Assembly: GCA_023150835.1 (NCBI GenBank)
Contig: JAKLKB010000117.1
Coordinates: 1 to 29,243 of the forward strand
Source of the DNA: Myxococcota bacterium
GTDB lineage: Bacteria; Myxococcota_C; UBA6777
Direction of reading: 5' to 3'
Length of the DNA: 29,243 bases
Below the pieces are notes generated by a model that had not been told where the DNA came from, did no database searches, and worked only from the letters and a program-made list of their open reading frames with translations. How positions within the stretch are numbered: the stretch's first letter is position 1; the number at the start of each line of letters is the position of its first letter. Positions 5,383 to 27,952 of the stretch are shown in pieces. The position numbers and the translations under genes are program-made.

Positions 5383-5701
5383 TGGGGCTTTTCCCCATAG
5401 GCGTTAGGTGAAGCGGAGGAAAGCCCCCCACCCCGCCCTCCCCCGTGAACAGGGGAGGGAGCGAAAGTCGGAAGCATCGGGGATTTTGTTTTTTCATGAC
5501 GCACGCTGTATGCACGAAATGCAGACGCTGCCAAAAGGCGATCAAGACCGACTCTACGAGGTTTCCACCTTAACAAGGCGCGTATGGGGCTTTTCCCCAC
5601 ACCCCACAAGGAGTGACAGCCCCCTTGACCCCGTATTTGGCGAAGAGATCACTGTTTTTCAAACCAACGACGCTCTCGCTTGAACTTACGCAAATACGGG
5701 G
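5383..5701 (+). repeat. Dispersed intergenic element, copy B (internally deleted)
   Basis: The core (5398-5584, 187 bp) lies between perfect 15-bp direct repeats TGGGGCTTTTCCCCA at 5383-5397 and 5585-5599. The left end reads TAGGCGTTAGGTGAA and the right end, inverted, TACGCGCCTTGTTAAGG. Hairpin 1 is present, but hairpin 2 and the poly-purine tract are missing: GCAGACGCTGCC runs directly into AAAAGGCGATCAAGACC, making the core 52 bp shorter than copies C and D. The 3' extension includes CCCCGTAT (5629-5636) and its inverse ATACGGGG (5694-5701), followed by ATTTTTC, so the whole region may act as a terminator. It sits between the convergent ends of the 3796-5334 and 5744-6445 genes. Confidence 0.92.
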
Positions 5702-5743
5702 ATTTTTCGAAAAAACGCCCCGATCACCCACCCATCGGCCCGA

Positions 5744-6445
5744 TCATATGCTCCCTTTTAAGTATGCTTGACGCTGCGGTTCTTCGAGCTTTTCGATGGC
5801 ATAACGCAGCATCGTTCGCGGCATCTTTTTGTAGCGCGTCCCCAAAAAGCCCTCCATCACGGCAAGATCGCGTTTTCCGATCTCGCGCAACATCCACCCT
5901 ACCGCCTTGTGGATCAAGTCGTGCTTGTCCTCCAACAACACCTCCGCGATCGCCAGCGCCGTCGCAAACTCTCCCCCACGAATCAACGCAAAACATGCCA
6001 ACATCGCGATCCGCCGCTCCCACAACGAAGCCGATCGCGCCCACTCAAACAGCGGCCCATGATCCCGATTTCGCAAATATGCCCCCACAATATGCGGCGC
6101 ACTCAGATCGATCAGATCCCAATTGTTGATCCGCGCTGTCGAGTCGATATAACGACCGTATATCCGCTGCTTTGTCTCTTCGTCTCCACGTTCAAAACGA
6201 TCCACCCACATCAACACACCCAACATCCGATCTTCGTGATACGCCGATGCCAACAACCACTCGATCTGATCTTCTGGCAAAGCCCGATAAGCCCGCACTA
6301 TCCGACGAATCACAGGCATCTTGATCCCACGAAACTGATCACCCTCCCCATACTCTCCCGCTCCTGTCTTGAAAAAACGCCCCAAGATCGCGGCATCCGT
6401 CGCTTTGCTCGCACCCTTCAATTCGTCTTGCAACTTTTCCCACAT
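5744..6445 (-). CDS. alkD: AlkD-like DNA alkylation repair glycosylase
   Basis: This 233-residue all-helical HEAT-like repeat protein matches the DNA alkylation repair family, which excises N3- and N7-alkylated bases. Family hallmarks are visible: GIKMPVIRRI near the N-terminus, NWDLIDLSAPHIVG with W109 and D113, SLWERRIAML with the R144/R145 pair, HDLIHKAVGWMLREIGKRD with W184, and MPRTMLRYAIEKL near the end. From memory, these align with the Trp, Asp, Arg and Trp that line the lesion pocket of Bacillus cereus AlkD, so the enzyme is probably active. I prefer the ATG at 6445 (GAGGGCAGG just upstream) over 6487, where AGGTGA touches the start codon. The gene is divergent from the 6701 gene, with 255 bases between them. 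Confidence 0.9.
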   Translation of the reverse strand: MWEKLQDELKGASKATDAAILGRFFKTGAGEYGEGDQFRGIKMPVIRRIVRAYRALPEDQIEWLLASAYHEDRMLGVLMWVDRFERGDEETKQRIYGRYIDSTARINNWDLIDLSAPHIVGAYLRNRDHGPLFEWARSASLWERRIAMLACFALIRGGEFATALAIAEVLLEDKHDLIHKAVGWMLREIGKRDLAVMEGFLGTRYKKMPRTMLRYAIEKLEEPQRQAYLKGSI

Positions 6446-6700
6446 CCTGCCCTCGCCTTGTCTTCTTAACCAAACAACTCCATTCACCTAAACATCGGCC
6501 CCATCTGTCACACTTTTCCCACGCCAAACCTTCCGTTCGTTAATGCGCTTCGATTTTTTAAGAAACTCTGCGTAATACCAGACGATACTCCATGATGAAG
6601 ATCTGCCAAAGCTGTTTTGTGGCTGTTTCATAACAAGCCGCCAAACAACCCAAGCACAACCTCTACAAAACATCTTGCCACCCAAATGTAAGGAGATGCC

Positions 6701-8332
6701 ATGAGCGTCCGTCGTTCGGATAATAACAACAATATTCAGCGCACCCAACAGGCCCAACAGGCCCAACAAACCAACCGCAACAGCGCTCCCTCTTCGACTC
6801 CCACCACACGCAGCAGCGGCAACTCCTTTGAAACGGGCCACTCCCGCCCCAATTTCGCTCAACCCCAATTCTCCCGCCCCCAGATCACCACCCAAAGCAA
6901 CACACAATACGTCAACGGTCGTCCTCAGTCCAACTCGACAACCGCACAGATCCAAGGCCGAAACCTCGAAGGATCGGCCCAACTTGACACCCAATTTGGC
7001 CGCAATGGTCAGATCACCCAACAAGACTTTAGCGCCAACATCACCCGAAACTACGGCGCAACCACCATCAACCAACAAGCCCAAGGCAGCTACACCAACC
7101 AAACCACCTACAACAGTTCCTCCAACAGTCGCGGCGTCGATTACCAATACAATCGTTCCGCCTCGGTCAACACCAGCGTGACCCACGATTACAACGCCGC
7201 ACAACGCGGAACCCCCGAATACGCCGCACAACGCGAAGCCTACGCACAACGCGCTGAAAACCTCCAAACCCTCCAAAATGCCGGAAACTACGCCGCCGAA
7301 AACCTTGGCTTGCGCACCACCCTCGCCGAAGGCTCCGTCAGTTCCCAATCCCAAGCTGCCCTGATCGACAACGGCAGCACCTTTGTGGGCGCTCGCGCAC
7401 AAGCCAACGCCCAAGGCTCCGTCACCGTCGGAACCGACGGCGTCCATGCCCAAGGCAACGCCGAAGCCCGCGCTGGTGTGTACGCTGAAACCGCAGGACA
7501 AGCCACCGGCGCTTATGGCACCGTCGCAGGCAGCGCAGGCGCTCGTGCCGAAGTGTACGCCACCGCCGAAGGCCAAGCCAGTCTCGATCTCAATGGCCTC
7601 AATGCCCAAGGTCGCGTCGCTATCGGTGCTGAAGTCTCCGCCGATGTTCACGGCACTTACACCACACCCCCTGTCACCATCGGCGGCGTCGATATGACCG
7701 CTGGCATCGACGCAAACGCTCGCGTCGCCGCCCAAGCCGAAGCCTCCGCAAGTGGCCGCGTCCAGATCACCGGCAACCCGCCCACCGCCATCATCGAAGG
7801 CGAAGTCGGCGCTTCTGCCGTCGTCAAAGCCGAAGCAGACGCCACTATCCATGTCGGACCCTTCTCCGTTACAGGCTCCGCCTACGCCAGCGCTGGCGCA
7901 GAAGCCCGCGCCCAAGGTGCGATCGGATTCGATGACGGAAAACTCACCATCAGCGGCGGAATCGGCGCGGCACTCGGCATCGGCGCTGGTGCTGACGTCT
8001 CCATCACCGTCGATGTCGGTGCCATCGGCAACGCCGCTGTTGGCCTCGCCCGCGAAGGCGCTCAAGCCGTCGTCAACACACTCGATGCCAACAACAACGG
8101 TCGCCTCGATATCGGTGATGCCGCTGCCATCGGTCAAAACGCTGTGAACACCGTTCGCGATGGTGTCCAAGCCGTCGGCAACGCCATCGGTGATGGTGTC
8201 CAAGCCGTCGGTAACGCCGTGTCCCAAGGCGCTCAAGCCGTCGGCAACGCCATCTCCAACGTCGGCAACGCCATCGGCGACGGTATCTCCAATGCCGGAA
8301 ATGCTGTCAAAGAATTTTTCAGCGGTTGGTGA
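6701..8332 (+). CDS. Repetitive Ala/Gly-rich protein with EF-hand-like loop and amphipathic 11-residue repeats
   Basis: This 543-residue protein starts at an ATG with AAGGAG upstream and has no signal peptide. Residues 1-200 are Asn/Gln/Ser/Thr-rich and disordered-looking. Residues ~220-450 alternate small and polar residues in short strands (GARAQANAQG, AEASASGRVQ, VTGSAYASAGAEARAQG), suggesting a repetitive beta structure. At 462-473 the loop DANNNGRLDIGD fits the calcium-binding pattern of EF-hand/dockerin loops. The last ~60 residues are 11-residue repeats such as DGVQAVGNAIG, ending in KEFFSGW, which would form an amphipathic helix. I do not recognise the family. The middle resembles, in style only, stalk or packing regions of some polymorphic toxins and phage-like structures. 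The TPR gene follows 193 bases downstream. Confidence 0.8.
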   Translation: MSVRRSDNNNNIQRTQQAQQAQQTNRNSAPSSTPTTRSSGNSFETGHSRPNFAQPQFSRPQITTQSNTQYVNGRPQSNSTTAQIQGRNLEGSAQLDTQFGRNGQITQQDFSANITRNYGATTINQQAQGSYTNQTTYNSSSNSRGVDYQYNRSASVNTSVTHDYNAAQRGTPEYAAQREAYAQRAENLQTLQNAGNYAAENLGLRTTLAEGSVSSQSQAALIDNGSTFVGARAQANAQGSVTVGTDGVHAQGNAEARAGVYAETAGQATGAYGTVAGSAGARAEVYATAEGQASLDLNGLNAQGRVAIGAEVSADVHGTYTTPPVTIGGVDMTAGIDANARVAAQAEASASGRVQITGNPPTAIIEGEVGASAVVKAEADATIHVGPFSVTGSAYASAGAEARAQGAIGFDDGKLTISGGIGAALGIGAGADVSITVDVGAIGNAAVGLAREGAQAVVNTLDANNNGRLDIGDAAAIGQNAVNTVRDGVQAVGNAIGDGVQAVGNAVSQGAQAVGNAISNVGNAIGDGISNAGNAVKEFFSGW

Positions 8333-8525
8333 TCCACCCCCACTCTCTCTATGATCTCGCCCCCCACTCTACCCGTCTGCCCCTATCCTTCCGCACTCAT
8401 CGATCTTTCTTCGCTCGTCCACCCCACTTGTGCGCTCATCTCTTCTCTTGCACGCATCCCCCATTATGCGGCATGATACCCACGCTACATTCTTTTCTGC
8501 CCCCAACACTCGCAGGAGGTTGATC

Positions 8526-9899
8526 GTGTCGAACTACGAGGCTCTCAAACGACAGGCACAAGCCAAACTCAAAGAACGCAATGCCCCCGAAGCCCGCGCA
8601 CTCTTTCTGCAAGCCGCACAAGCCAAAGGGATCGATCTTCAAGCCCTTTTGCGACAAGGCGATATCTTGCTCCACCAAGGCAAGATCCCCGAAGCCACCC
8701 AGATGTACCTCAAAGTCATCGAAGAAAATCCAACCGATATCACCGCGTTGTTGGCCCTCGCCCGTTCTGCCCTCTTTATCAACCAAACCGCAGACGCCGA
8801 ATCCTTTTTGATGGGCGTCGAACGCATGGAACCCGAACATCCGCAACTTCACACCTTGCGCGGTCTGCTCTGTGAGACCCAAGGCGATCTGCCCAAAGCC
8901 CTCCGCTCTCTCGAACAAGGCGCGGCCTTCGGCCCCAAAGACTACCTCGCTCAGTACAATTATGGCCGATGTTTGGCTGCAACCCACGACAACGCCAAGG
9001 CCATCCCCTTCTTGCAACAAGCCACCCAACTCGATCCCAAAAGCTATGACGCCTATTATGCCCTTGGGATGGCCCAAACCCACCTCGGACAATACGGCGA
9101 TGCCGTCTTGTCTTTTCAACACGCCATGAAGATCGCCCCCAAACGGCTCGATATCTACGCCACGATCGCCGATGTCCTCATGAAAGCAGGCGATCCAGAA
9201 CACGCCCTCCAAGCCCTCAACCTTGGGATGAACACCGTCGAAGAACACCCCGCCCTCCTACAAAAAGCCGCCGCTGTCTGCGCAGCTTCCGGCAAGATCG
9301 CCAACGCGGTTCAGTACCTTGAGCGCGTCGTCGAAAAAATCCCCGACTACTACCAAGCTTGGCTCAACCTCGCCAGTTTCTACATCCTCACCCAAGACCT
9401 CGAACGATCCGAAGCCGCAAGCAAACGCGCCGTCGCGATCAATCCCAAAGACTGGCAAGGACATTACCAACTCGGCAACCTCTACGAAGCCGTCAAACTC
9501 TACGACCAAGCCGAAGCCGCCTATCGAAAAGCCGTTGAATGCGCCCCCCAAGAACCCCGCGCCCACGCCAACCTCGGCATCGTCCTCTTGCAAGTCGACG
9601 ACCGACTCAAAAACAAAGAATCCACCGGCTGTTTCGAACGCGCTATCCAATACGCCACCCCCGGAGATTACCGCTGGCACTACAACCTCGCTCTCGCCTA
9701 CGCCAAACTCGGCCTCAAACCCCGTACCCGCGAACTGATCAACGAGATCCTCGAACACTCCAAAGACGAGGAACTCCTCGACGCCACCAAAGCCCTCCAA
9801 AAAAACGTCTTCTCCACCCAAGACGAAATGAAACTCAGCCTCGCTCTCTCTTCCCTCCGCATCGTCAAACCCCCCCGCTCCCACGAAGACGAAGAATAA
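8526..9899 (+). CDS. Tetratricopeptide-repeat (TPR) protein
   Basis: The protein has 457 residues. I chose the GTG at 8526 because AGGAGGT stands 6 bases upstream; the frame is open further upstream to 8430 without a ribosome-binding site. Nearly the whole protein is TPR, with roughly 10-11 helix-turn-helix units recognisable by the W/L-G-Y-A-P pattern (for example AYYALGMAQTHLGQYGDAV, AWLNLASFYILTQDLERSE, GHYQLGNLYEAVKLYDQAE). There is no signal peptide, membrane segment or catalytic domain, so it is probably a cytoplasmic scaffold. The end is charged (PPRSHEDEE). The nearest neighbour is the repetitive protein at 6701-8332, which may be a partner, but that rests on position alone. Repeat copy C begins 19 bases after the stop. 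Confidence 0.88.
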   Translation: MSNYEALKRQAQAKLKERNAPEARALFLQAAQAKGIDLQALLRQGDILLHQGKIPEATQMYLKVIEENPTDITALLALARSALFINQTADAESFLMGVERMEPEHPQLHTLRGLLCETQGDLPKALRSLEQGAAFGPKDYLAQYNYGRCLAATHDNAKAIPFLQQATQLDPKSYDAYYALGMAQTHLGQYGDAVLSFQHAMKIAPKRLDIYATIADVLMKAGDPEHALQALNLGMNTVEEHPALLQKAAAVCAASGKIANAVQYLERVVEKIPDYYQAWLNLASFYILTQDLERSEAASKRAVAINPKDWQGHYQLGNLYEAVKLYDQAEAAYRKAVECAPQEPRAHANLGIVLLQVDDRLKNKESTGCFERAIQYATPGDYRWHYNLALAYAKLGLKPRTRELINEILEHSKDEELLDATKALQKNVFSTQDEMKLSLALSSLRIVKPPRSHEDEE

Positions 9900-9918
9900 T
9901 TCGACACATCACAAAATG

Positions 9919-10187
9919 TAGGGGCTGCCCCCATACGCGCCTTGTTAAGGTGGAAACCTCGTAGAGTCGGTCTTGATCGCCTTTTTTTTTTCTCCCCCCC
10001 CCCTCAATCCCCCCGTGAACGGGGGGAAGTTGGAACGGGCAGCGTCTGCGTCTCGTGCATACAGCGTGCGTCATGAAAAAACAAAATCCCCGAGGCTTCC
10101 GACTTTCGCTCCCTCCCCTGTTCACGGGGGAGGGCGGGGTGGGGGGCTTTCCTCCGCTTCACCTAACGCCTATGGGGGCTGCCCCCA
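9919..10187 (-). repeat. Dispersed intergenic element, copy C (inverted)
   Basis: The core (9934-10172, 239 bp) has the same length as copy D but lies in reverse orientation. It is bracketed by TAGGGGCTGCCCCCA (9919-9933) and TGGGGGCTGCCCCCA (10173-10187), which agree at 14 of 15 positions. Read on the minus strand it starts TAGGCGTTAGGTGAAGCGG, carries both hairpins, the poly-purine tract and the GGCGATCAAGACCGACTC block, and ends with the CGCGTA terminus. Unlike A, B and D it has no copy of the 3' extension beyond the direct repeat. It lies directly downstream of the TPR gene. Between it and the tandem repeat at 10454 there are ~266 bases in which I see no supported gene. Confidence 0.92.
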
Positions 10188-10453
10188 TAGGATATCGTGT
10201 GAGTCCGCAAGCAACGCTTTTTCGGAATAGATCGCAAAGGTTCACGGAAAAGGTGGCGACGTCTGCTTTTTCGACGACCCATCGCCGCTCCCAAAAGACA
10301 GACCCATCCGTGTGATCTCTCAACTCCACCGACCGCCCATCACTCACCAAGCAGCCAAGATTCCCATCGTATCGAGAAGATCGTCTTGTCATTGCGATGC
10401 GCACACGTCTTGCGATAACGCCCGATGAACCTTGCCGATCCGCAAACAGCGAA

Positions 10454-10552
10454 AAGGCATCACGAAAACGTGAACAAGCCTCACCCAAACACACAAAGGC
10501 ATCACGAAAACGTGAACAGGTCTCATCAATATGCACAGAGGCATCGGGAAAA
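10454..10552 (+). repeat. 42-bp tandem repeat with paired CACG-AAAA-CGTG palindromes upstream of comM
   Basis: Two full units (10454-10495 and 10496-10537) and a partial third starting at 10538 precede comM. Both full units begin AAGGCATCACGAAAACGTG and so carry the palindrome CACGAAAACGTG at 10461-10472 and 10503-10514. The 42-bp spacing corresponds to four helical turns, placing both palindromes on the same face of the DNA, as expected for a cooperative operator. The unit is a multiple of three, so the frame upstream of comM stays open, but the ribosome-binding site at the end of the third unit argues the repeats are untranslated. Confidence 0.7.
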
Positions 10553-10564
10553 AAGGAGGCAGAG

Positions 10565-12088: not shown

Positions 12089-12108
12089 ACCCAAAAGGAA
12101 ACCTCCCC

Positions 12109-13113: not shown

Positions 13114-13187
13114 ATGATAGCTTTTTCGCGGCGACGGCTTCTGTTGCCGCATCTGCGTCGATCACTTTCAACACGAACCCGCTGCCT
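13091..13187 (+). repeat. 21-bp direct repeat spanning the 3' end of the recA-like gene
   Basis: TTCAACACGAACCCGCTGCCT occurs at 13091-13111, where it encodes the last residues before the stop, and again at 13167-13187, 76 bp downstream in non-coding DNA. The bases before each copy do not match. Between them is a GC-rich inverted repeat (13128-13135 with 13143-13150, one G-T mismatch) without a T-run. It may be the scar of a small duplication or deletion at the gene end. Confidence 0.7.
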
Positions 13188-13212
13188 AAAGAAAGCAGCC
13201 CGATCTGTCCGC

Positions 13213-13716
13213 TTAAAACAGCACTTCTTCGAGATGGCGTTGAAAGCGTGCGAGGGTTCCGTCTTGTTGCTGGACGTTGCGTTGCCGAAGCAAAAGCAAC
13301 AAGGATTCGCGCTTAAACATAAACTCGGTCAGGATGCGGTTGATCTGATCGACTTGCCACAAGATCTCTTCTTGTTTGAGCCCATGACGAGCAGCGTCAC
13401 AAAGCGCATCGCGGCTGACGGCGTAGGCCGACTCACGGGCTTCTTCGAGGGCGGCGTTCATCGCGGCATAACTGGCATCACGTGCGACTTTGTAGACCGA
13501 ACGGGCGGCGTCTTGCGCAGCATAGAAGGCATAACGCAAGGCTTGTTCGGAACATTTTCCTTCGATAAACAACCGCTTGTAGCGAAGGGCTTCGAGGCTC
13601 CGAGGATCGGGGGTTATGCCGATCTGGCGACAACGTCGCAACGCCCGTTCTGCACAATCACAAGCGAAGGTATGCAAAAGATGGTCAGGTATTTTCTCCC
13701 ACGGCCATAAGTACAT
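13213..13716 (-). CDS. Alpha-helical Ala-rich protein (immunity-protein-like), unknown function
   Basis: This 167-residue protein starts at an ATG with GGAG six bases upstream; the frame extends to 13788 but that part reads through the preceding gene. It begins MYLWPWEKIPDHLLHTFACDCAERAL and then forms Ala-rich helices with the repeated pattern YAxxAAxDAARxVYKVARDASYAAMNAA. The layout (FACDCAER, then PDPRSLEALR, then Ala-rich repeats) resembles a widespread group of uncharacterised proteins sometimes labelled putative immunity proteins; I recall this only loosely. Its start overlaps the stop of the receiver gene by 32 bases, so the two are probably translated together, hinting at a link with the phosphorelay. 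There is no toxin gene beside it, which weakens an immunity role. Confidence 0.7.
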   Translation of the reverse strand: MYLWPWEKIPDHLLHTFACDCAERALRRCRQIGITPDPRSLEALRYKRLFIEGKCSEQALRYAFYAAQDAARSVYKVARDASYAAMNAALEEARESAYAVSRDALCDAARHGLKQEEILWQVDQINRILTEFMFKRESLLLLLRQRNVQQQDGTLARFQRHLEEVLF

Positions 13717-16241: not shown

Positions 16242-19200
16242 CTAAGAAAGACGTTCCAAACGCGACAACCATTCACACACGCCCAGCAACAACACACTTT
16301 CCTCCGAATCATCAAAGACCGCACTCACAAGGCCCAAAAGACCCGCCTGAAGCTGCACTTGCTCTCGCTTTTGTACAATCAGCGCGATCGGGATATCGCC
16401 CCACAACGGATTGGAGCGCATCGCACGTAAAAAAGCAAAACTGTCCAACGAAGACACCGCCACATCGATCAAGATCGCATCGGGAGTTCCCCGATTTAAG
16501 GCGCTCACCGCTTCATTTCCGTTGCGTGCGATCACGGGAAACCAACCCACCCCATGCAACCGCTCCGAAAGCAGATGGCCCAAACGCTCGTTGCTCTCGA
16601 TGATCAATACTTTTTGTTGCCCAGAACTCACAGACAGCGTCCGCAAATTCTGCAACAACAGTCCCCGATCCACGGGCTTGGTCATATAACCCGAAGCTCC
16701 CCACGCAAACCCTTGGCTCTTGTTGTCCAACATCGACAAGATCAACACAGGGATCCGTGCAAGCGCTTTGTCTTGCTTCAAACGCTTGAGTACGCTCCAT
16801 CCGTCCAAACCCGGCAAGATCACATCCAAGGTGATCACCTGTGGTCGCAAAGCAGAAGCCATCTCAAGGGCCGTTTCTCCATCCCGCGCAAGCGCCACCC
16901 CAAAACCTTCGCGTGTCAAGATCCGCGTCATCAAATCCAACATCGCAGGATCATCATCCACCACCAACACCAACGGCATCGGATGCCCCTGCCCTTCCGC
17001 AGCAGACGTAGCTCCAGAAACAGGCATCACCCCTTCTCGAACCACGTGGCTTGCCTCAAACACTCCGCTCCCCCACTTCGTCTTCTCCGCCCCCACAGCC
17101 GCCGCTGGTTCTCGTCCCGCCCCCACAGCCGCCGCTGGTTCTCGTCCCGCCCCCACAGCCGCCGTTGGTTCTCGTCCCCCCCCCACAGCCACCGAGGGTT
17201 CTCGTTCCACCAAAGCAGAAGAGGGGGGCGGCAAAGAAAGCGTAGGCAGCGACAAGACAGGATTTGAGATGCGTGTACCGCGCAAGGTCGGTTCGGGTTG
17301 GATAGTGGGAAGCGAAAAGGCGGATGTCTTTTTGATCGGGTTGGGGTGCGAACTTGTCGGAGAGGTCAGGGGTTCTGCGGGCTGCTCTTCTGTGGGTGGG
17401 AAGGAAGGCAAAGGAAAGGGAGTCGAGCGATTGACACGAAAAGATGCAGGCGGAACGGCTGAGATGCGGCTATTGTGATCGGAGGATCCGCCTGTGCGCA
17501 AGGCAGGGTGGGTTCGCCGCAATTCTTTTGGCGGGGACTCCGCCGCCGCTCGTTGCAACGGCTCTTGTTCGGTCGAAGAGCGCCGTTGGTTCGGGGTTTC
17601 GGGCGAAGAACGTTGCAGCGGCGAGGTTTCGGGCGAAGAACGTTGCAGCGGCGAGGTTTCGGGCGAAGAACGTTGCAGCGACGAGGTTTCGGGCGAAGAA
17701 CGTTGCAGCGACGAGGTTTCGGGCGAAGAACGTTGCAGCGACGAGGTTTCGGGCGAAGAACGTTGCAGCGGCGAGGCTTCGGGCGAAGAGTGTAGGGATT
17801 CATGCTCGGTCGAAGAACGCCGCAGGGTCGGGGTTTCCGTCGAAGAGCGCCGTAGGGTCGGGGTTTCCGTCGAAGAGCGCCGCAGGGTCGGGGTTTCCGT
17901 CGAAGAACGCCGCAGGGTCGGGGTTTCCGTCGAAGAGCGCCGTAGGGACGAAGTTTCAGAGGAAGAGTGTAGAGGTTGATGTTCGGTCGAAGAGCGCCGC
18001 AGATCGGTGGGTAGAGGGGGAGAAAGAGGTGGGTGATCGCTCTTGGCTCCGAGTCCGATCACGACACGAGGAGCGGAAGGTGCGGGATCGCCGAGAGATG
18101 CGTTGGATTCTCGGCTGCGCGGTGCAGGTTCGAGATCGACGGCGAGGTTTTGCGGCAAAAAGACCGTAAAGCGCGAGCCTTTCCCCGGGAGGCTATCGAC
18201 TTCGATATCTCCCCCCATCATCCGGCAAAAATGCCGACTGATCGCCAACCCAAGCCCTGTACCGCCGTACTTTCGGCTTGTCGAAGAATCTGCCTGAGAA
18301 AAAGCCCGAAACAACAGCTTTTGCTGTTCCTGTTCGATCCCGATGCCTGTGTCCTCGACAGAAAACACCACCCACTGTTGTCCCCCACGCCGTATCTCGC
18401 TGATGCGCAAATTGACCTCGCCCTGTTGCGTAAACTTGCAAGCGTTGGACAACAGATTGAGCAATACTTGGCGCACCTTGGTTGGGTCGCACAAAAACTC
18501 TTGGGGCTCGGCTTCCATCTTCAACGAGAGGCGGTTTTGATTTTTCTCTGCAAGCGGTCGGATCGTCGTCATCACGTCATGGATCATGTCGCGCAGTCGC
18601 ACAAACTCCATAAACAATTCCATCCGCCCCGCCTCGATCTTCGAGAGATCGAGAACATCGTTGACCAGCGCCAACAAGTGCTTGCCCGAGGCGTTGATCT
18701 TTTCCAGATCGGTCACGAGATCTTCGTAACATCCCTGCTGGATATCCTCTTGCATCATCTCGCTGTACCCGATGATTGCGTTGAGTGGCGTGCGCAACTC
18801 GTGGCTCATATTCGCCAAGAATTGGCTTTTGGCGTTGTTCGAGGCTTCTGCACTTTCTTTGGCTTTGCGGAGTTCTTGCTCGATGCGCTTGGTCTCGCTG
18901 ACATCGGTCGACACCGAGACTCCGCCCACCACCGCCCCCTCTTCGTCAAAAAGCGGCGTATAATACGCCTCAAAAAACGCTCCTTCGATCTCAAGGATCG
19001 TAAAGATCGCCTCCCCTCCCAAGACACGCTCCGCGCAATGGCGAATGGTTTCGTTGCCCAAGGATACGATCGACTGCCCCACAAGCTCGGCGCTATTCCA
19101 GCCGATCTGATGAAGGTTCCGCCCCAACGCCAACGTGATCACGCCCGCTCCATCGAAGACAAAGAAATGGATCGGAGCGCTATCCAAGATCATCTGCATC

Positions 19201-19721
19201 CATGCTTGATTTTCTTCGAGTGCTTCTTCGGCGCGTTTGCGTTCGGTCGACTCAAGCCCCGTCCCCAACACCAAGCGGCGCCCCTTAAAAATGATCGGAG
19301 CCAAGGTCAGATCCAACCAACCGATCCCACCGTCGCGCCGCTGAAAAGCGATCTCAAAACGCCGCTCTCCAAATTGATGCCGTAAAGACACCAACGCATC
19401 GTGAAGCTGGGCGCGTTCCTCTTCGGCGATCAGTTCCCAAAAAACCCCTTCGATCAGCTCGTCGCGTGTGTAGCCCGTCAACCGAACCAACGCAGGATTG
19501 ACATACAACAGCTCCGTATCATGCAATACAAATGTCGCAGCAGGCGATATCTCGGCCATGATCTGAAATTCTTCGCTGTCCAACTCGCGTTTGGGGGTTG
19601 TCTGCCAACGCGCTTGTTCCTCCGCCAACAGCGCCATCATCTCTTCGTAGGCCTCTTCATCTTTACAAAGCTGCCTCAAGCGCCCACGCGACTCTCGATC
19701 CACGCCAGCCTCCGCATCCAT
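16242..19721 (-). CDS. Large hybrid histidine kinase: PAS-PAS-HisKA-HATPase-repeat linker-REC-REC
   Basis: This 1159-residue protein has a short coiled N-terminus, PAS 1 (~50-165, FRDGG-like core and STERKRAEE exit), PAS 2 (~170-290), HisKA with H307 in [11 protein letters not shown], and an ATPase domain with N box [10 protein letters not shown] and G2 [11 protein letters not shown] ~380-residue Ser/Pro/Arg-rich linker with two families of 10-residue repeats follows. Receiver 1 has DDD at its start and phospho-Asp D966 in [13 protein letters not shown], with Lys in MTKPVD. Receiver 2 has IESNE instead of an acidic pair, keeps D1086 in [10 protein letters not shown], but lacks the conserved Lys (VFDDSE), so it is degenerate. 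No membrane segment is visible. Two direct repeats lie upstream of the start at 19769-19862. Confidence 0.93.
17089..17208 (-). repeat. Four 30-bp tandem repeats encoding [10 protein letters not shown]-type units
   Basis: Within the linker of the 1159-residue kinase, four consecutive 30-bp units encode [30 protein letters not shown] and REPAAAVGA. The last two units are almost identical in DNA, suggesting recent expansion. The unit length keeps the frame, so copy-number changes would lengthen or shorten the linker before receiver 1. Confidence 0.85.
17546..18005 (-). repeat. About 16 tandem 30-bp units encoding L[RQ]RSS[TP]ETxx repeats in kinase linker
   Basis: The linker contains 16 consecutive units, mostly of 10 residues. 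Two sequence classes alternate in blocks: [10 protein letters not shown] (five units, the last [10 protein letters not shown]) and [12 protein letters not shown] (six units, the last [10 protein letters not shown]), with two 9-residue spacers LHSSSETSS and LHSSPEASP and variant end units ([29 protein letters not shown]). Units within a block are identical or nearly so in DNA, a sign of ongoing unequal exchange or slippage. The reading frame is kept throughout. Confidence 0.9.
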
Positions 19722-19768
19722 ACGACGCTACCGCGCCCATGCCATCGCGTCTTTCGCTCCTATACGTC

Positions 19769-19862: not shown

Positions 19863-19899
19863 CCCCTGCGCCTTTGATCAGACTCGAAACACCAAGGTA

Positions 19900-22776
19900 T
19901 CAGCCACCAAGCACCGATGTTTGGGGCTTTTTGGGGCAGCACCATGCAGACAACGCACGAGCAAGCGTTTCTTGACGGACGGGCTTGGCCAGATAGTCAT
20001 CCATTCCTGCGTCCAACGCACGTTGTTTGTCTTCTTCGAGGTCGCTTGCACTCATTCCGATGATCGGAAGTCCTTTTGCGAAGCGTTGTCGGATCAACGC
20101 AGTGGTTTGATAACCGTCCAGTTCGGGCATTTGACAATCCATCAGGATGGCCTTGTAAGGCACATCACACGACCGCTGCAAACAAAACAAGGCTTCTTGG
20201 CCATTCGACGCCAAGTCCACCGCGTAGCCCAGCCGATCGAGGGTCAGCGTCATCACACGCTGGTTCAGCAAGTTGTCTTCGACCACCAACACACGAGGAT
20301 GCTCGGCTTTTTCCGCAGAAGATCGTGCCTCTCCTTGATCTTGTTGGAGAAAAGAGATGTCTGATTTGTTGTTTTTGGGGGGGCGTGTCTGGGGTGCCTT
20401 TTCCATTCGTGCTTCCTTCTCCCCTACGCGCAAGTCTTTTGTTTGCAAACCCCGCCCCCTCGCAGGATCGCCCTCAAAACGTTTTGTCGGATACCCCGTT
20501 CTTTCTCCACCCCCACGCGGAGAAAAACGTTCTGTGGTTATAGAATGCTTTTGTTGTTCTGTCGAGAGCGTCGTTTGAGTATGGCCGATGCTGTACGCCA
20601 ACGCATCTACCGCGTGGCGGGAGCCAAACGCCGAGGGATGGCCGACGTTCTCTGTGTAAGCGGCCTGTTCTTGGCGCGCCAAAACAGCCGAAGGATGGGA
20701 CGACATCGACGAGGGGGAGAGATGGGAGATCGCTGCGAGCGAAGGGTGGGCTTCGCCCCAGCGATCTTGCGGATGATAGGAAGGAAACAGATCGGAGCGT
20801 TCGAGGCGGATCGAAGTGCTTGATGGGGTGGTTCCTGCTTTTTTATAGGGATTGCTCGTGACGTGGCGTTGCTCTTTTTGCCAAGCCAACGCCAACGAAA
20901 GAACCCGCCGCATCTCTTCTTGGCGAACGCGCCGTTCAAAAACAAAAAGCCCTGCACGCGCCGCCGCCCAACGCGGCACAAAATGGGGATTCGAGAGCGA
21001 TACCACATACGCACAACGCGAAGCTACGGGAGATTCCGCATAACTCGCCAACCAAGACCACGCCTGTTCTTCCATGCCATCGGCCTCGATCCAACACAAC
21101 GAAACTCCCGTCGGCTCATGTTCAGACCACAACAACCGCGCCTCCGCCTCGTAGAGGCTCCCGACGCTTTCACACATACATCCCCACGCCGACAACAAAC
21201 GCCTCGCCCAAACACGCCGCGTTCCGAGTCGATCCACCCACAAGATGCGCGGTGGCGGCACCCAACTCTCGATCCCAACCAGCGGCAAAGCAGGCGTGGG
21301 TGATCCATTCCACACCAACCCACTTCCCTGTTTTTGGGTCGTCAACGGCAACCACACCGCAAAGCAACTTCCGATATCGGGAACACTCGACACTTCGATC
21401 CGGCCCCCCATGCGCTCCGCCAGTTGTTTGGCGATCACCAAGCCCAAGCCCGTCCCTCCAAAGTGGCGGCTTGTCGAAGCATGAGCTTGTTCAAAGATCG
21501 AAAAGAGCCGAGGGATGGCCTCGGCTTCGATGCCGATCCCTGTGTCGCGCACACTCAAACGCACGCCTTCGCCCAAGCGTTCGGCATGTACGGACACCTC
21601 TCCTGCTTGGGTAAACTTTAAGGCGTTGGCGATCAAGTTCATCAAGATCTGCCGCAAACGCAGCGGATCGCCCCAGATATGGTGCGGAAGATCAGGGTCG
21701 ATCATACCCACCAACGGCAGTGACTTGTTGTGCGCTTGGGGCCAAAAAAACGACAAGACGCTCTCGATCAAGTCGGGGAGATCAAACGAGACCTGTTCAA
21801 GTTCGAGGCGACCCGCCTGTAGCTTGGAAAAGTCCAAGATATCGTTGACCAGATCCTGAAGCATCAGGCCCGACTCACGGACGATCTGGAGCAGCTCGTT
21901 GTCGTCCAATTGTCGTTGCTCGTTTTGCAGCAGCTCCAAGGCCGTCAACATCCCATGCAACGGCGTGCGGATCTCGTGACTCATCCGCGCCAAAAATGCC
22001 GAGCGCTCTTCGGCGGCTTGTACAGCTTCTTCGTGGGCTTGTTGTAGCTTTCGTTCGAGATTTTTGTGCGCGGTGATATCGCGTACGATCACCAAGGCTT
22101 CTTCGGGATGGACGGCCACGATCCGCGCCTCGTAAGCGTGTTCTCCCGCTTGACGCTGCTTGACGCTGTATTCCATCTGTTGTGCAACCCGCGAGGTCAG
22201 CACAAGATCGATCTTCTCTTGCATCTTTTCATCGATCCCAACGGGCCAAGGGCGTTCCGCTGCGCTTTGTGGATCAAACACATCCCGCCAACTCAAGGCA
22301 TCCCGTACTCGGGCGTCTTCGCTCACATGAAACAAACAATCCGGCAATGCGTACAACAATGCCCGATGTCGCTCCTCGATCTGCTCAAGGGCTGCCTTCG
22401 TTTGCTCGCTCTCTTCTAACTGTCGCCGCAATCGCCCCCCCAAAGCGTGCATCTGTCCAAGCGACAAACCCACCCACGAAAACAATGCCATCCCCGCAAG
22501 GTACAGACTTGGCTGGTGAACGATCTCGTTCGGATAGCCCGCAAGATACAACAACGTGGTCTGATTCCCCATCGCCACCATCGCTGCCAACAAGCCCACG
22601 CGCCGCCCTGCGATCCCGCCGCTCAATCCGACAGGAACCACCGCCAATAAACCTGCCAATGCGCCAAAATTCCGATACAACGGCAGATACAGCGCCCACA
22701 TCCCGATCCATGAAAGCCACATCAAGATCACCCAAAGGCTTCTTCGATCTGTGATGTCGCTGATCTTCTGGCTCAT
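19900..22776 (-). CDS. Membrane hybrid histidine kinase: 4 TM-PAS-HisKA-HATPase-pseudoREC-REC (BarA-like)
   Basis: This 958-residue protein begins with about four membrane helices (residues ~13-110, no large periplasmic loop). A coiled coil and a PAS-like domain to ~240 follow, then HisKA with H267 in MSHEIRTPLHG, and an ATPase with N box NLIANALKFT and G2 GGTGLGLVIA. Residues ~505-635 look like a receiver that has lost its active site (ILWVDRLGTRRVW, then CWIEADG). A ~190-residue low-complexity linker leads to a canonical C-terminal receiver with D880 in ILMDCQMPELDGY and LAKPV. The pattern is that of BarA/ArcB-type phosphorelay kinases but without a C-terminal Hpt domain, so a separate Hpt protein is expected elsewhere. 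The start has GAGGGGGTG upstream; rnd ends 96 bases before it. Confidence 0.93.
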   Translation of the reverse strand: MSQKISDITDRRSLWVILMWLSWIGMWALYLPLYRNFGALAGLLAVVPVGLSGGIAGRRVGLLAAMVAMGNQTTLLYLAGYPNEIVHQPSLYLAGMALFSWVGLSLGQMHALGGRLRRQLEESEQTKAALEQIEERHRALLYALPDCLFHVSEDARVRDALSWRDVFDPQSAAERPWPVGIDEKMQEKIDLVLTSRVAQQMEYSVKQRQAGEHAYEARIVAVHPEEALVIVRDITAHKNLERKLQQAHEEAVQAAEERSAFLARMSHEIRTPLHGMLTALELLQNEQRQLDDNELLQIVRESGLMLQDLVNDILDFSKLQAGRLELEQVSFDLPDLIESVLSFFWPQAHNKSLPLVGMIDPDLPHHIWGDPLRLRQILMNLIANALKFTQAGEVSVHAERLGEGVRLSVRDTGIGIEAEAIPRLFSIFEQAHASTSRHFGGTGLGLVIAKQLAERMGGRIEVSSVPDIGSCFAVWLPLTTQKQGSGLVWNGSPTPALPLVGIESWVPPPRILWVDRLGTRRVWARRLLSAWGCMCESVGSLYEAEARLLWSEHEPTGVSLCWIEADGMEEQAWSWLASYAESPVASRCAYVVSLSNPHFVPRWAAARAGLFVFERRVRQEEMRRVLSLALAWQKEQRHVTSNPYKKAGTTPSSTSIRLERSDLFPSYHPQDRWGEAHPSLAAISHLSPSSMSSHPSAVLARQEQAAYTENVGHPSAFGSRHAVDALAYSIGHTQTTLSTEQQKHSITTERFSPRGGGERTGYPTKRFEGDPARGRGLQTKDLRVGEKEARMEKAPQTRPPKNNKSDISFLQQDQGEARSSAEKAEHPRVLVVEDNLLNQRVMTLTLDRLGYAVDLASNGQEALFCLQRSCDVPYKAILMDCQMPELDGYQTTALIRQRFAKGLPIIGMSASDLEEDKQRALDAGMDDYLAKPVRQETLARALSAWCCPKKPQTSVLGG

Positions 22777-22872
22777 CTTGCACCCCCTCGTGCATCACGT
22801 GCCAACCCATTCCACTTCCAACCTTCAAACGTCGGCAGAACATAAATGCTTTTCACTCAAAAAGATAGCCCC

Positions 22873-24018
22873 TTAGTTTTGCAAAGCATCCAGCAACGCA
22901 CGTCCATATCGCCGCACGCGCCACCCAGACATCCCCGGTACTTTGGCCAAAGACACCAGATCGCGTGGCCGATGAAGCAGACAATTCTTCAACAACTGAC
23001 CCGAAAACAACAATCCCCCTTCGATCCCCTCTGCCTCTGCCAGCGCATTGCGCCAATCGCGCAGTCGATCAAAATGCTCCACGTCCAACGAAGACTCTGA
23101 CACACGGCCTTTTTGCGTTCTGGGCTTTTTTGGCAGAGGGCGCAGCGGCCCTTGGCTCCGTACCACCGCCTCGATCAACAGTTCTCCATACTCTCGGATC
23201 TGCGCAGGCTTCATCCCTCGTAAGGCCGAAAGCTCCTTCACTGTTCGCGGTTCTCGTACCGCCATCTCGATCAAAGCATGATCAGGAGCCACCAAAAATG
23301 CGGCCTTGTTGATCTCTTCGCAGATCAGATGTCGGGCCACATACAAAGCGTGCAACGTTTGAAGCTGTCGCGCAGAGAGTTCTTTGGCCCCCTTCAACCG
23401 AAGAAAACCGCTGGAATCAAACAATTTCTCTTCGTAGTGGGTTTGTTGCGCGATGTTGCGCGACTCTTCTAATGCCGCATCCAACCAACCGCATTCTTCA
23501 AGCTGTTCCAACAGCAAGTCCTTGAGTTCGAGCAGATGGCGAACATCCGTAGCCGCGTAAGCAAGCGCCTCTTCGGGCAACGGGCGTATCGACCAATCCA
23601 ACGTCTGAAACTGCTTGGTGATCTGCAACCCAAAGAAACGCTCCAACAAAGCGCTCAATCCACGTCCGGGGAGCGCCAAAAATCCCGCCGCGATCTCCGT
23701 ATCAAACAGCCCTTGCGCATGGATCTGATAATCTCTTTGCAGGTTCAAAAGGTCGTTGACTGCGCTATGAAAGACTTTTAAGCGCTGTGCATCCGACAAA
23801 AATTCACGCAAGATCGCGATCGACGCTTCCCCAAGCGCCAGCAGATCCAACAACGCTACCTGCCCGCGTGTCGCAACTTGCATCAAACAAAGCCGTGGGC
23901 GGTAGCTATGAACCCCATCGCTTTCCGTATCCACAGCGTACTCTTGTTCTTCGCGCACACTTGCCCACCACGCCGCAAAGATATCGTCCCGATCAATCCA
24001 CTGCCACATCTGCACCAC
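22873..24018 (-). CDS. rnd: Ribonuclease D (DEDDy 3'-5' exonuclease with HRDC domain)
   Basis: This 381-residue protein carries all RNase D exonuclease motifs: VDTE (D30, E32), FHSAVNDL (D89) and YAATDV (Y154, D158), the DEDDy set that binds two metal ions. The family phrase KQFQTLDWSIRPL is present. An HRDC domain follows at about residues 205-285, and a second HRDC-like helical region ends the protein (LVSLAKVPGMSGWRVRRYG). The known role is 3' trimming of tRNA and other stable RNA in the cytoplasm. It starts at GTG (24018, with alternatives GTG 24015 and ATG 24009; GAGAGGGAG lies just upstream) and overlaps the kinase gene by 26 bases, so it is translationally coupled to it. Confidence 0.95.
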   Translation of the reverse strand: MVQMWQWIDRDDIFAAWWASVREEQEYAVDTESDGVHSYRPRLCLMQVATRGQVALLDLLALGEASIAILREFLSDAQRLKVFHSAVNDLLNLQRDYQIHAQGLFDTEIAAGFLALPGRGLSALLERFFGLQITKQFQTLDWSIRPLPEEALAYAATDVRHLLELKDLLLEQLEECGWLDAALEESRNIAQQTHYEEKLFDSSGFLRLKGAKELSARQLQTLHALYVARHLICEEINKAAFLVAPDHALIEMAVREPRTVKELSALRGMKPAQIREYGELLIEAVVRSQGPLRPLPKKPRTQKGRVSESSLDVEHFDRLRDWRNALAEAEGIEGGLLFSGQLLKNCLLHRPRDLVSLAKVPGMSGWRVRRYGRALLDALQN

Positions 24019-24952
24019 GCTCCCTCTCTATCTGCGCAACCCACGTCCTCAAAAACGCCTCGCCTTCTTCTTCGGCTTGTTGCGCCAATGCCTCCAACTC
24101 CCCAAGCACCACTTCCGCACTTTCGGCACGCGCCTCCAAACTTGGCTCCAATACGCGCTCCAAGATCGGCTCCACTTCCTCACGCCAAGGCAAGTCAACC
24201 CCCACCATCGGCGGCATCTGCAACACCGGCAACCTCTCCAAGATCTGCTCTGGTGACATCCCTGCAAACAAGCGCCGCCCCATCAACATCTCCCACATCA
24301 CCAACCCCCACGAAAACAGATCCGATCGCGGCTCCACAGGCCGCCCACAAGCCGCCTCAGGCGACAGGTACGCAAAACGCCCGCGCAGCGAGTCCCACGC
24401 CGTCTGCCGCAAGATCACATCCGACACCGCGATCCCCAAGTCCGCCACTTTGACCCAACCTGCGGTACTCACCAACAGATTCGGCGGCGAAAGATCCCGA
24501 TGCACTACCGATATCTTCTTTCCTTCGGACACTTCGGCTTGATGAAGGTAACACAGCGCACGCAAGACCTGTATCCCTACACACACCGCTGCTTGCGCAG
24601 GCCAACGCACGCCCCGCTGTTGGGTCTCCTGCAACAACACACCCAGATCACAGCCTTGCACATACTCCATCAAAAGATACGGCGCTGCGGGATCTTCACA
24701 ACCCGCTACATACGACGCCAGATGCGGATGTTGCAAACGCTCCATCATCCGAATCTCATCACAAAACATCGCGATGATCTCGTCGTCCGCATCAAACGGA
24801 AAACGCAAGGTCTTTAAGGCATAACGCACACTTGGATCGTCTTGCGGCCCCACCAGCCACACCGAGGCCACTCCGCCTTCGGCCAACAACCGCAACGCGA
24901 CCCAAGACCACTCCCGCAAGACCATGCGCTGCACAACACTCGATCCCCTCAT
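23993..24952 (-). CDS. Hanks-type Ser/Thr protein kinase, cytoplasmic
   Basis: This 319-residue protein is essentially one kinase domain. It shows a degenerate Gly loop (AEGGVASVWLV), the ATP-anchoring lysine K47 in YALKTL, helix-C glutamate E66, the catalytic loop VHRDLSPPN (D153, N158), metal-binding D171 in ADLGIA, and SPE in place of APE. No membrane helix or sensor domain follows; the ~45 C-terminal residues are a Glu/Ala-rich coiled coil. The ATG at 24952 overlaps the rimI stop as ATGA, with GGAG 8 bases upstream, so kinase and rimI are coupled. Substrates are unknown. A candidate by motif is the RRSS-rich linker of the hybrid kinase downstream, which is inference. Confidence 0.93.
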   Translation of the reverse strand: MRGSSVVQRMVLREWSWVALRLLAEGGVASVWLVGPQDDPSVRYALKTLRFPFDADDEIIAMFCDEIRMMERLQHPHLASYVAGCEDPAAPYLLMEYVQGCDLGVLLQETQQRGVRWPAQAAVCVGIQVLRALCYLHQAEVSEGKKISVVHRDLSPPNLLVSTAGWVKVADLGIAVSDVILRQTAWDSLRGRFAYLSPEAACGRPVEPRSDLFSWGLVMWEMLMGRRLFAGMSPEQILERLPVLQMPPMVGVDLPWREEVEPILERVLEPSLEARAESAEVVLGELEALAQQAEEEGEAFLRTWVAQIERERGADVAVD

Positions 24953-25446
24953 CCCTTCGGCTCCATCGACAACACAAACACCCACGCATCCTCGATCGGC
25001 TTGTCGTAATACTTTTTCCGCAGACCCACCTGTTCAAACCCAAACGACCGATACAAGCCGATCGCTGCAACATTCGAGATCCGCACTTCCAAAAAGATCT
25101 CCAACACCCGCGCTTCTCGCGCAATCCGTATCGCATCCTCCAGCATCTTCCGACCGATCCCCATACGCTGATACGCCGGAAGCACCGCCACATTCAATAG
25201 ATGCAACTCGCTTGGCAACAACCAAGACAAACAATACCCCACAGGGATCTCTTCTCCACCAAGAGGATCGCGCAATACCGCCAAGCGAAAACGCGACCAA
25301 GGATGCGTAAACTCCGGCTCCAAGGCTTTTAATGACCACGGGTGCGGCTGTGCCATCCGCTCGATTCGGCATATCGCCGAGATATCGGCCTGCGTCGCCT
25401 GACGCAACGACAAGACTTGCCCTTGTATCTCTAAGATCGCGCTCAT
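24949..25446 (-). CDS. rimI: RimI-like N-alpha-acetyltransferase (GNAT family)
   Basis: This 165-residue GNAT protein contains the acetyl-CoA-binding signature NVAVLPAYQRMGIGRKML and the RimI-type C-terminal motif EVRISNVAAIGLYRSFGFEQVGLRKKYY. The N-terminal half carries RQATQADISAICRIERMAQPHPWS, typical of RimI, which acetylates the N-terminus of ribosomal protein S18. Other small GNAT enzymes with the same pattern cannot be excluded. The ATG at 25446 has AAGGGG 4-5 bases upstream; the frame is open to 25470. It follows the FGE-like gene by 66 bases and overlaps the Ser/Thr kinase gene by four bases. Confidence 0.88.
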   Translation of the reverse strand: MSAILEIQGQVLSLRQATQADISAICRIERMAQPHPWSLKALEPEFTHPWSRFRLAVLRDPLGGEEIPVGYCLSWLLPSELHLLNVAVLPAYQRMGIGRKMLEDAIRIAREARVLEIFLEVRISNVAAIGLYRSFGFEQVGLRKKYYDKPIEDAWVFVLSMEPKG

Positions 25447-25512
25447 CAAACCCCTTACGACCTGTCCCACGCCACCGCCGTCGCCACCTTCATCTTCCCC
25501 CGCCTGTGCGCT

Positions 25513-27357
25513 TTATTCACGCGGTAGCTGGATCAATGTCAGATTGAGATGGCTTGTGCCGACGCGGTAACGCTCCATAAACTGACGGATATTTCTGTGC
25601 CGAAAGCCTTTATAGCCATCCTTGGCTTTTTCCGCAAGCAAACGCTTGTACGCTAGACCGTGCTGAATGTTGTAATGAAAGTAACTTTTGCTCTTCGATC
25701 CCCAACGCGGATGCGAGACCGTCCGAATGATCAGACTCAAGTTGTCCATCGGCATGATCTCAAAACTCTCCCGATAATGCGGGCTGTAGGGCCAGTACTC
25801 CTCCGCATTGGAAAAGTAAGCCATCCGCACCACGATCCCCATCTCTTTGGCGGCCTTCGCCACACCGCGCAAGCTGCTCTCTTTCAACAAGTCCCCCGGC
25901 ATCGCACGAAAACGACCGAGCAGATGAAGCTTGCGGATATGCTCGTAGTGGCGCGGCGTGATCAACCAATGCTCTTTGTTCGCAAAGGTCTTGGCTTTCG
26001 CAAACTTTTCGCTAAAGTACCGAAAGAATTTCCCGCGATAACGCCCATAAGCCCGCAAGATCATCTTGCGATCAGGATCTTCTTTGTAAGTTTCTTCAAG
26101 CAAGGCTTGGCTGGTCTTTGCACGTTTGGGATCGTAGTACTTGACGAATTCTTGGCCTGTCTCCGCCTTCAACAAAAAGGCGCGATGCACCTTGTGAACC
26201 CAAGGGATCACCGCGTCATAATCCATCAGCCACACATACTCCGAACGCGCCCACGCAATGAAGTTATAGTTTTGATCGGCCCCGATCCCGACATACCCTC
26301 CCCCCAAGTTCTGGATATAGGGATGCCACAAGTACGGATGGCTTTCATTGGAGGTGACGTAGTGGTTGGGGTCGCGACAATCACTGCCTGAGCGCCCTGC
26401 GCGGGGACACAGTTTTTTGTTGGCGAGGACATCTTCGGGACTCTTCCAAAACAGTTTGTTGTGCTGTTCGGAAAGCGGTGTCGCGGGAGTCGAGATCGCG
26501 GGGCGAGGCTTGAGATGCAGATAAGTCCCCGCTGTTTGCGCCAACGTCGGGGTGCTTGAGGCACAACGAATACCCGCCATCATGCTCGGAAGATTGGGGT
26601 CTGCCGCTTTGCGTGTGTAGGCAGCAAGCTCGTTGGGGCCGCGCAGAAACGACCCACCCCGCAAGATCTTTTGGCTCGAAGTGGAGCAATCATCACGCCC
26701 ACCACACGGGCCTTTGGGATCGTTTCCTTGGCAAGCCTCACCACAAGCCCCTTCACAAGCCCCATAACACGGGGTGTACCAGTCCTGCACCCACTCGGCG
26801 ACGTTCCCCGACAAATGAAACACACCAAAACCTTGTGCTTCACGCCCCTTGGTTCCGACAGGATGGCGTGGGCCACAGCGCGAAGTGTGGGCTCGCCGAC
26901 ACGTCGGAGCTTCTTTGCCCCAAGGATAGTCCGTACCGTTGGGACCGCGTGCTGCCCGTTCCCATTCCGCTTCGGTCGCAAGGCGCTTTCCGACAAAGCG
27001 GCAGTACCGCACTGCATCGTACCAAGTGACATGTGTCACAGGATTCTTTTTTTGCAAAAAAGACGGGCTGATCGGGATACCAAACGGACGAAAACAACCG
27101 CCCGCTTTGACGCAACGATCATACGCTTCGTTGGTCACTTCGTGCTTGTCCAGATAAAAGGTCTCGACGGTCACTTGGGCCGCTGGTTTGGCGTTCTGCT
27201 CGCTATCATGGCCCCGCGTAAAGCTACCCCCCACGATGCACACCATCCCTTCGGGAGCTTCTTTGCAAGGGGCCGCTGCATGGGCGGCCACAACATTCAA
27301 ACACCAAACCACGAATCCAAGGCCCACGCTCCGCCCCATTCTTCCGATTTTTCGCAT
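25513..27357 (-). CDS. Secreted FGE-sulfatase-like protein fused to a predicted methyltransferase-like domain
   Basis: The protein has 614 residues. The ATG at 27357 has GGAG nearby and gives a clean signal peptide (MRKIGRMGRSVGLGFVVWCLNVVAAHAA). Residues ~33-270 are an FGE/SUMF1-like domain: HEVTNEAYDRCVKAGGC, VTWYDAVRYCRFVGKRLATEAEWERAARG, GNVAEWVQDWY, ILRGGSFLRG, AGIRCAS. The two active-site cysteines of true formylglycine-generating enzyme are not evident in the last section, and a Cys/Gly-rich insert (YGACEGACGEACQGND) is present, so it is probably a non-FGE relative. Residues ~300-614 carry GGGYVGIGADQNYNFIAWARSEYVWLMDYD, which resembles from memory a family of predicted Rossmann/methyltransferase-like proteins (annotated LIC_10091-like). 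The fusion is unusual and the protein is probably periplasmic. Confidence 0.85.
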   Translation of the reverse strand: MRKIGRMGRSVGLGFVVWCLNVVAAHAAAPCKEAPEGMVCIVGGSFTRGHDSEQNAKPAAQVTVETFYLDKHEVTNEAYDRCVKAGGCFRPFGIPISPSFLQKKNPVTHVTWYDAVRYCRFVGKRLATEAEWERAARGPNGTDYPWGKEAPTCRRAHTSRCGPRHPVGTKGREAQGFGVFHLSGNVAEWVQDWYTPCYGACEGACGEACQGNDPKGPCGGRDDCSTSSQKILRGGSFLRGPNELAAYTRKAADPNLPSMMAGIRCASSTPTLAQTAGTYLHLKPRPAISTPATPLSEQHNKLFWKSPEDVLANKKLCPRAGRSGSDCRDPNHYVTSNESHPYLWHPYIQNLGGGYVGIGADQNYNFIAWARSEYVWLMDYDAVIPWVHKVHRAFLLKAETGQEFVKYYDPKRAKTSQALLEETYKEDPDRKMILRAYGRYRGKFFRYFSEKFAKAKTFANKEHWLITPRHYEHIRKLHLLGRFRAMPGDLLKESSLRGVAKAAKEMGIVVRMAYFSNAEEYWPYSPHYRESFEIMPMDNLSLIIRTVSHPRWGSKSKSYFHYNIQHGLAYKRLLAEKAKDGYKGFRHRNIRQFMERYRVGTSHLNLTLIQLPRE

Positions 27358-27534
27358 CCCTTCGCTCTCCAAACATCCAGCGTCTACACAACGAGGCCAC
27401 TCAACATAGCCCCACAACATCGACCCCACCGCACAGATGGCATCAAGTCATCCCCCCTACAAACCACAACCACCAACCAAACGCAAATTTCTCACCCGCT
27501 CCCCTCTGCTCACACAACAACGCCATCATTTCGG

Positions 27535-27567
27535 TTTTTGCGAGGATTTTTGCGAGGATTTTTGCGA
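27535..27567 (+). repeat. 12-bp tandem repeat next to copy D
   Basis: TTTTTGCGAGGA is repeated twice and followed by a partial third unit (TTTTTGCGA). It ends 9 bases before the left direct repeat of copy D. It is a simple tandem repeat in non-coding DNA upstream of the FGE-like gene. Confidence 0.85.
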
Positions 27568-27576
27568 TGGTGTTTG

Positions 27577-27952
27577 TGGGGTTTCACCCCATAGGCGTTA
27601 GGTGAAGCGGAGGAAAGCCCCCCACCCCGCCCTCCCCCGTGAACAGGGGAGGGAGCGAAAGTCGGAAGCATCGGGGATTTTGTTTTTTCATGACGCACGC
27701 TGTATGCACCAAATGCAGACGCTGCCTGCCCGTTCCAACTTCCCCCCGTTCACGGGGGGATTGAGGGGGGGAGAAAAAAAAAGGCGATCAAGACCGACTC
27801 TACGAGGTTTCCACCTTAACAAGGCGCGTATGGGGTTTCACCCCACGCCCCACAAGGGACTATCGCCCCTTGACCCCGTATCGGCGAAGAGATCAGGCGT
27901 TTTTCAAAACAACGACGCTCTCGCTTGGAGGGCCGCGAACACGGGGTTTTTT
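27577..27952 (+). repeat. Dispersed intergenic element, copy D (full length)
   Basis: The core (27592-27830, 239 bp) lies between perfect 15-bp direct repeats TGGGGTTTCACCCCA at 27577-27591 and 27831-27845. It carries the left end TAGGCGTTAGGTGAAGCGG, hairpin 1, hairpin 2 and the poly-purine tract, and the right end CAAGGCGCGTA. A four-base TGCC duplication distinguishes it from copy A at GCTGCC(TGCC)CGTTCC. The 3' extension resembles that of copy B and includes CCCCGT (27874-27879) and ACGGGG (27941-27946) followed by TTTTTT, a possible intrinsic terminator with a very long loop. It lies downstream of the Rpn-like gene and upstream of the FGE-like gene, both on the minus strand. Confidence 0.92.

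Follow-up and report, generated by a model that had tools for sequence, protein, structure and literature searches.

The four repeated elements in the window, the whole 29,243-bp stretch that was analyzed, add a new member to a known class of mobile elements, and their choice of target is unusually clear: they insert almost only into a hairpin-forming repeat present about 600 times in the genome. We consider it likely that all four are non-autonomous MITEs, moved in trans by an IS231-like DDE transposase from the IS4 family that works by cut and paste, makes an 11-bp stagger, and favors the first hairpin of a high-copy intergenic repeat, here called rep1. This reading is built on exact element ends, an 11-bp duplication, a target preference, plentiful empty targets, and an internally deleted sibling that retains a coding start; we infer the IS4/IS231 type of the transposase and the cut-and-paste movement. 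The window is one entire contig of a 7.56-Mb genome in 239 contigs. For ComM, the best relatives reach only about 56% identity and come from many different phyla.

The motif TGGGGN5CCCCA has 6 exact matches in the window, where shuffles predict 0.05. They lie at 203–217 (central bases CGCTG), at 5383–5397 and 5585–5599 (both CTTTT), at 10173–10187 (GCTGC), and, around copy D, at 27577–27591 and 27831–27845 (both TTTCA). The original prediction had described these as copy-specific 15-bp repeats that bracket each copy, with matching ends in copies B and D and agreement at 14 of 15 positions in copy C, and all of this was borne out. For copy C, the other flank is TAGGGGCTGCCCCCA (9919–9933, against 10173–10187), and the sole differing base is the outer target base, which lies outside the 11-bp duplication. 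Between the paired palindromes of the window copies lies a repeat of 191–243 bp. The features are as follows.

1–204, forward strand: copy A, right part of a MITE truncated by the contig start, with right end TTAACCTAACGCCTATG
205–215, unstranded: right 11-bp duplication of copy A, GGGCGCTGCCC; its left partner lies beyond the contig
5385–5395, unstranded: left duplication of copy B, GGGCTTTTCCC
5396–5586, forward strand: copy B, a 191-bp MITE without the second internal hairpin
5587–5597, unstranded: right duplication of copy B, GGGCTTTTCCC
5585–5708, forward strand: rest of the rep1 hairpin repeat that is the target of copy B
9921–9931, unstranded: duplication of copy C, GGGGCTGCCCC, left on the forward strand
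9932–10174, reverse strand: copy C, a 243-bp MITE in reverse orientation
10175–10185, unstranded: duplication of copy C, GGGGCTGCCCC, right on the forward strand
27579–27589, unstranded: left duplication of copy D, GGGTTTCACCC
27590–27832, forward strand: copy D, a 243-bp MITE used as the reference copy
27833–27843, unstranded: right duplication of copy D, GGGTTTCACCC
27831–27952, forward strand: rest of the rep1 hairpin repeat that is the target of copy D, with a T run at its end

The element reads CATAGGCG...CGTATG. It is about 240 bp long (mostly 152–277 bp), contains no gene, and carries CATA(G/C)GCG at both ends. Genome-wide, two probes found 56 left and 75 right ends, and 167 ends lay within 3 mismatches of CATAGGCGTTAGGTTAAG; counts of ends lead us to estimate roughly 130 copies. 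Being short, multicopy, without coding capacity, and bounded by terminal inverted repeats and a duplication of fixed length, these elements are MITEs. Complete copies, 55 from this genome and 2 from a congener, numbered 57, and their two flanks were compared, as had been suggested. Identical 11-mers flanked 40 of the 57, a 10-bp match was found in one, and matches of 9, 12, or 13 bp in none; when the pairing of flanks was shuffled 10,000 times, the mean number of identical pairs was 4.7 and the maximum 13. GGGN5CCC was present in 38 of the 40 duplications, which comprised 18 distinct sequences, each alike on either side of its own copy. The off-consensus target GGGCAGCGCAC (L028) was also faithfully duplicated.

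The target-site duplication is 11 bp long, GGGN5CCC. The proposal that a palindromic target is duplicated upon insertion thus holds, while the sizes put forward for it, 15 or 5 bp, do not. In all 40 matched copies the inner dinucleotides are CA and TG (the element starts with CA and ends with TG), whereas the outer TG/CA is found in only 27. Because the inner bases are constant and the outer ones vary, the apparent 15-mer is made up of target TG, the 11-bp duplication, and element CA, with the mirror image on the other side; duplications of 15 bp and of 5 bp are both rejected. CATA... and ...TATG can be assigned to the element, since copies in targets other than TGGGG/CCCCA fix the boundary. 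Copy C is one such case: its left junction is ATGTA-GGGGCTGCCCC-CATACG and its right junction CTATG-GGGGCTGCCCC-CATAGG, with 11 bp in common.

The remaining 17 of the 57 copies, which lacked an exact flank match, included near-misses, some of them a single base off, and apparent recombinants. In 4 of these 17 (L054, L116, L196, and L026) the flanking loops were reverse complements of each other, where 1.35 were expected (P = 0.026). These four may reflect recombination between copies, inversion, or misassembly; such origins have been proposed for the imperfect flanks of ISRm22 (PMC1525189).

The palindrome that serves as target is abundant, with 609 occurrences in this genome (2 for the reversed-pattern control) and 506 in one congener, against 13–15 in three genomes from other genera of the family. 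In two samples, together 1.38 Mb, an adjoining element was missing from 34 of 49 palindromes in the one and from 39 of 43 in the other, 73 of 92 in all. Most of these empty palindromes are the 5′ hairpin of rep1, a repeat of about 120 nt in which TGGGGYNNNRCCCCA is followed by CAAGGGAGCGCGGCTCCCTTG and by a longer arm that closes with CCGT/ACGG and a T run. Several covarying hairpins and the 3′ T run characterize it, as in the window copies at 5585–5708 and 27831–27952. In an alignment of 39 copies, the top pair of the loop was C-G in 19, U-A in 16, U-G in 1, and unpaired in 3. Over the whole structure, two-sided changes were seen in 31 cells against 14.4 in shuffles (0/500), and pairing reached 87%, compared with 36–43% in slid controls. 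A search of the window against Rfam gave no family match. The analysis uncovers a covarying hairpin repeat of about 600 copies that has no Rfam match and is confined to one genus among the five genomes of the phylum compared: hundreds of copies occur in this genus, and sister genera are nearly devoid of it. A terminator-like or REP-like nature is conceivable, and the repeat may itself be mobile, being missing at one orthologous locus (L373).

Insertion at gene ends, which had been suggested as a preference, was not supported. By rough ORF calls, 28 of 92 palindromes fell within called ORFs, compared with 86% of random positions, and the spacers that held palindromes were divergent in 18 cases, tandem in 30, and convergent in 9; the palindromes avoid genes, not divergent spacers. 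A second repeat family, GTAGGGGC[A/T]GCCCC..., receives other insertions; such a second target is the dispersed repeat TACGATATCCGC...GGGCAGCCACAGGGGGCTGCCCCTAC...GGGCGGATTTCGTA, which has inverted ends (L408:440-540, L410:538-665, L002, and L004).

Positions 4 and 8 of the duplication were complementary in 37 of 40 insertions, against 117 of the 238 unoccupied intergenic GGGN5CCC sites in the sample (P = 7e-8; intergenic status from a simple ORF caller). The preference extends past GGGN5CCC, and recognition of a hairpin or of an extended symmetrical sequence would fit equally. We infer that self-complementarity of the target, perhaps as a hairpin or cruciform, matters beyond extended sequence alone. 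A stronger version, which we regard as improbable, is that the transposase reads its target as a hairpin or cruciform and not as sequence. The GGG-N5-CCC would then be required to be self-complementary, its variable positions would need only to pair, and the MITE would have co-evolved with a genus-specific structured repeat that acts as a renewable landing pad. With 40 reconstructed insertions and hundreds of empty sites in one genome, these elements offer an extensive natural record of how an IS4-type element chooses its targets, from which one can ask whether sequence or hairpin structure is what the enzyme reads.

The original prediction had also called for empty sites. These are plentiful within the same genome, as the unadjoined palindromes show, but a clean orthologous empty site was not found in the single congener examined (G001, 93–95% identity over the window genes) at copies A–C and several further loci. 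At copies B and C the congener lacks such an element, but its spacers there have been rearranged and contain a different repeat, and at locus L003/L373 it has neither rep1 nor MITE. At four other orthologous loci (copy A, L426, L023, and L002) it does carry an element in the same target. The ends of these elements match a sister element about 567 bp long, and the orientation is the same at two loci and opposite at the other two. Independent hits on one site explain the shared-target loci of both genomes; no insertion rate can be derived from them, as both loci of each pair were chosen for being occupied.

Two rival accounts were considered. The flanks could be parts of the hairpin repeat whose likeness is maintained by gene conversion, or by recombination among neighboring palindromes, and not by duplication at insertion, an alternative raised in the original prediction. 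A palindrome of such high copy number makes likeness by chance or exchange possible, and the excess of reverse-complement loops among the non-matching copies points the same way. Yet the identity spans exactly 11 bp in register, the off-consensus sequence at L028 stands on either side of its copy, and most palindromes stand alone without an element. With 18 distinct duplications, every one of them matching across its copy, gene conversion is needless, and we judge it very unlikely. Still less credible is that element and hairpin repeat form a single composite repeat that spreads as a unit, the MITE insertion being ancient. Most insertions do lie inside rep1, and the congener lacks both at L003/L373. 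However, the same MITE is also found in the second repeat family, a longer relative lies in ACCCTCACCCC, and four loci of the congener show the same target occupied by another element, one of the 567-bp kind, in either orientation. As a general account the composite repeat is refuted, since most rep1 copies contain no MITE.

The family of the transposase is a separate matter. Members of the IS231 subgroup of the IS4 family have ends of the form CAT-------AA--TAA--- and generate direct repeats of 10–12 bp (PMC2266710). The MITE ends fit this signature in CAT at positions 1–3 and TAA at 15–17, as does the 11-bp duplication in length; at positions 11–12, where the signature has AA, the left end has AG (A11 only) and the right end TT (neither base). 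Judged by their sequence, the ends, together with duplication length and target, point to an IS231-like member of the IS4 family. A 333-bp sibling (L388:14743-15075) has the same ends and an ORF that starts with MKHTPKERTSSLLFEQQRTLIEELAQKHGILKRRRQIRCIGELLFMLQLVALANTCLRTAAELF... behind a Shine-Dalgarno-like sequence and covers the first 65 or so codons of a putative transposase; the sibling resembles an autonomous copy that has lost its interior. Its N-terminal fragment gave no significant family match, the sole one of interest being a weak match to DUF4372 (E = 0.09). Other traces of an autonomous relative, this sibling aside, were decayed end fragments only. Longer elements with MITE ends, or relics of them, were seen to be full of the short tandem repeats CGGAAAGTA and CTTCGCTCC (L129:2075-2967, L131:2266-2926, and L440:17300-17650).

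An intact partner was sought in several ways. A PF01609 profile search returned five hits in the genome, none with MITE ends, and in five relatives found no intact copy with such ends; the one IS4 copy bearing YREK has ends unlike those of the MITE. Neither an N-terminal peptide search of the available DNA, plasmids, and viral contigs nor a search for generic GGGN5CCC-flanked pairs up to 6 kb yielded an intact partner, and element, end, and repeat patterns had no match in GTDB contigs, viral contigs, and plasmids. A DDE transposase of another family with duplications of about 11 bp, converged on similar ends and target, is a possible but less likely reading of the same mobile element: the assembly holds no IS4-type transposase with MITE ends, and the N-terminal fragment matches no family significantly. 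Against it, the duplication length, the CAT start, and TAA at 15–17 fit the IS231 subgroup (PMC2266710), and none of the contigs read is shorter than about 2.4 kb (the shortest has 2,391 bases), so that loss of a collapsed 1.5-kb IS from the bin is to be expected.

Under the preferred reading of an IS231-like enzyme, a DDE transposase acting in trans would mobilize the gene-less MITEs. It would cut GGGN5CCC with an 11-bp stagger and join the element ends, 5′-CATA(G/C)GCG...TTAAG, to the cut target, so that each copy has its own 11-bp duplication on either side. The favored target is the first hairpin (TGGGGYNNNRCCCCA) of the high-copy intergenic repeat, and the element would shuttle among hundreds of equivalent safe sites. 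Such safe-site targeting into repeats would account for the genome tolerating roughly 130 insertions. The autonomous partner is pictured as a roughly 1.5-kb IS that has the ends CATACGCGCTAGGTTAGCGCTGTAGAC...TTAACAAGGCGCGTATG and a DDE/YREK ORF starting with MKHTPKERTSSLLFEQQRTL.

Several known systems resemble this one in part. REP elements are units of 20–40 bp with a GTAG/CGTC tag and a RAYT transposase. As in REP/BIME systems, the target here is a high-copy intergenic palindrome (609 copies) serving as an IS target, but it is about 120 nt long and has a T run at its 3′ end in addition to several hairpins. IS231A has the target consensus GGG(N)5CCC and is known to insert into the ends of Tn4430. 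In the Bacillus cereus group, non-autonomous members of the IS231/MIC231 system are mobilized in trans (PMC1196294), and the present elements share its CAT ends, TAA at 15–17, and a duplication within 10–12 bp (PMC2266710). They differ in their non-Bacillus host, in being gene-less and about 240 bp long, in the absence of the AA of the end signature, in that no transposase was seen here, and in having a high-copy genomic hairpin as target. All copies of ISRm22, an IS4-family element of Sinorhizobium meliloti, lie at the axis of an intergenic REP palindrome, and some of their flanks are recombinant (PMC1525189). The likeness lies in an IS4-type element at an intergenic palindromic repeat with some recombinant flanks, but ISRm22 has a transposase and 6-bp repeats (PMC1525189), whereas the elements described here lack a gene, are flanked by 11-bp repeats, and number roughly 130.

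The window also contains 30-bp in-frame repeat arrays at 17057–17236 and 17508–17996, within a large histidine kinase gene (16242–19721, reverse strand).
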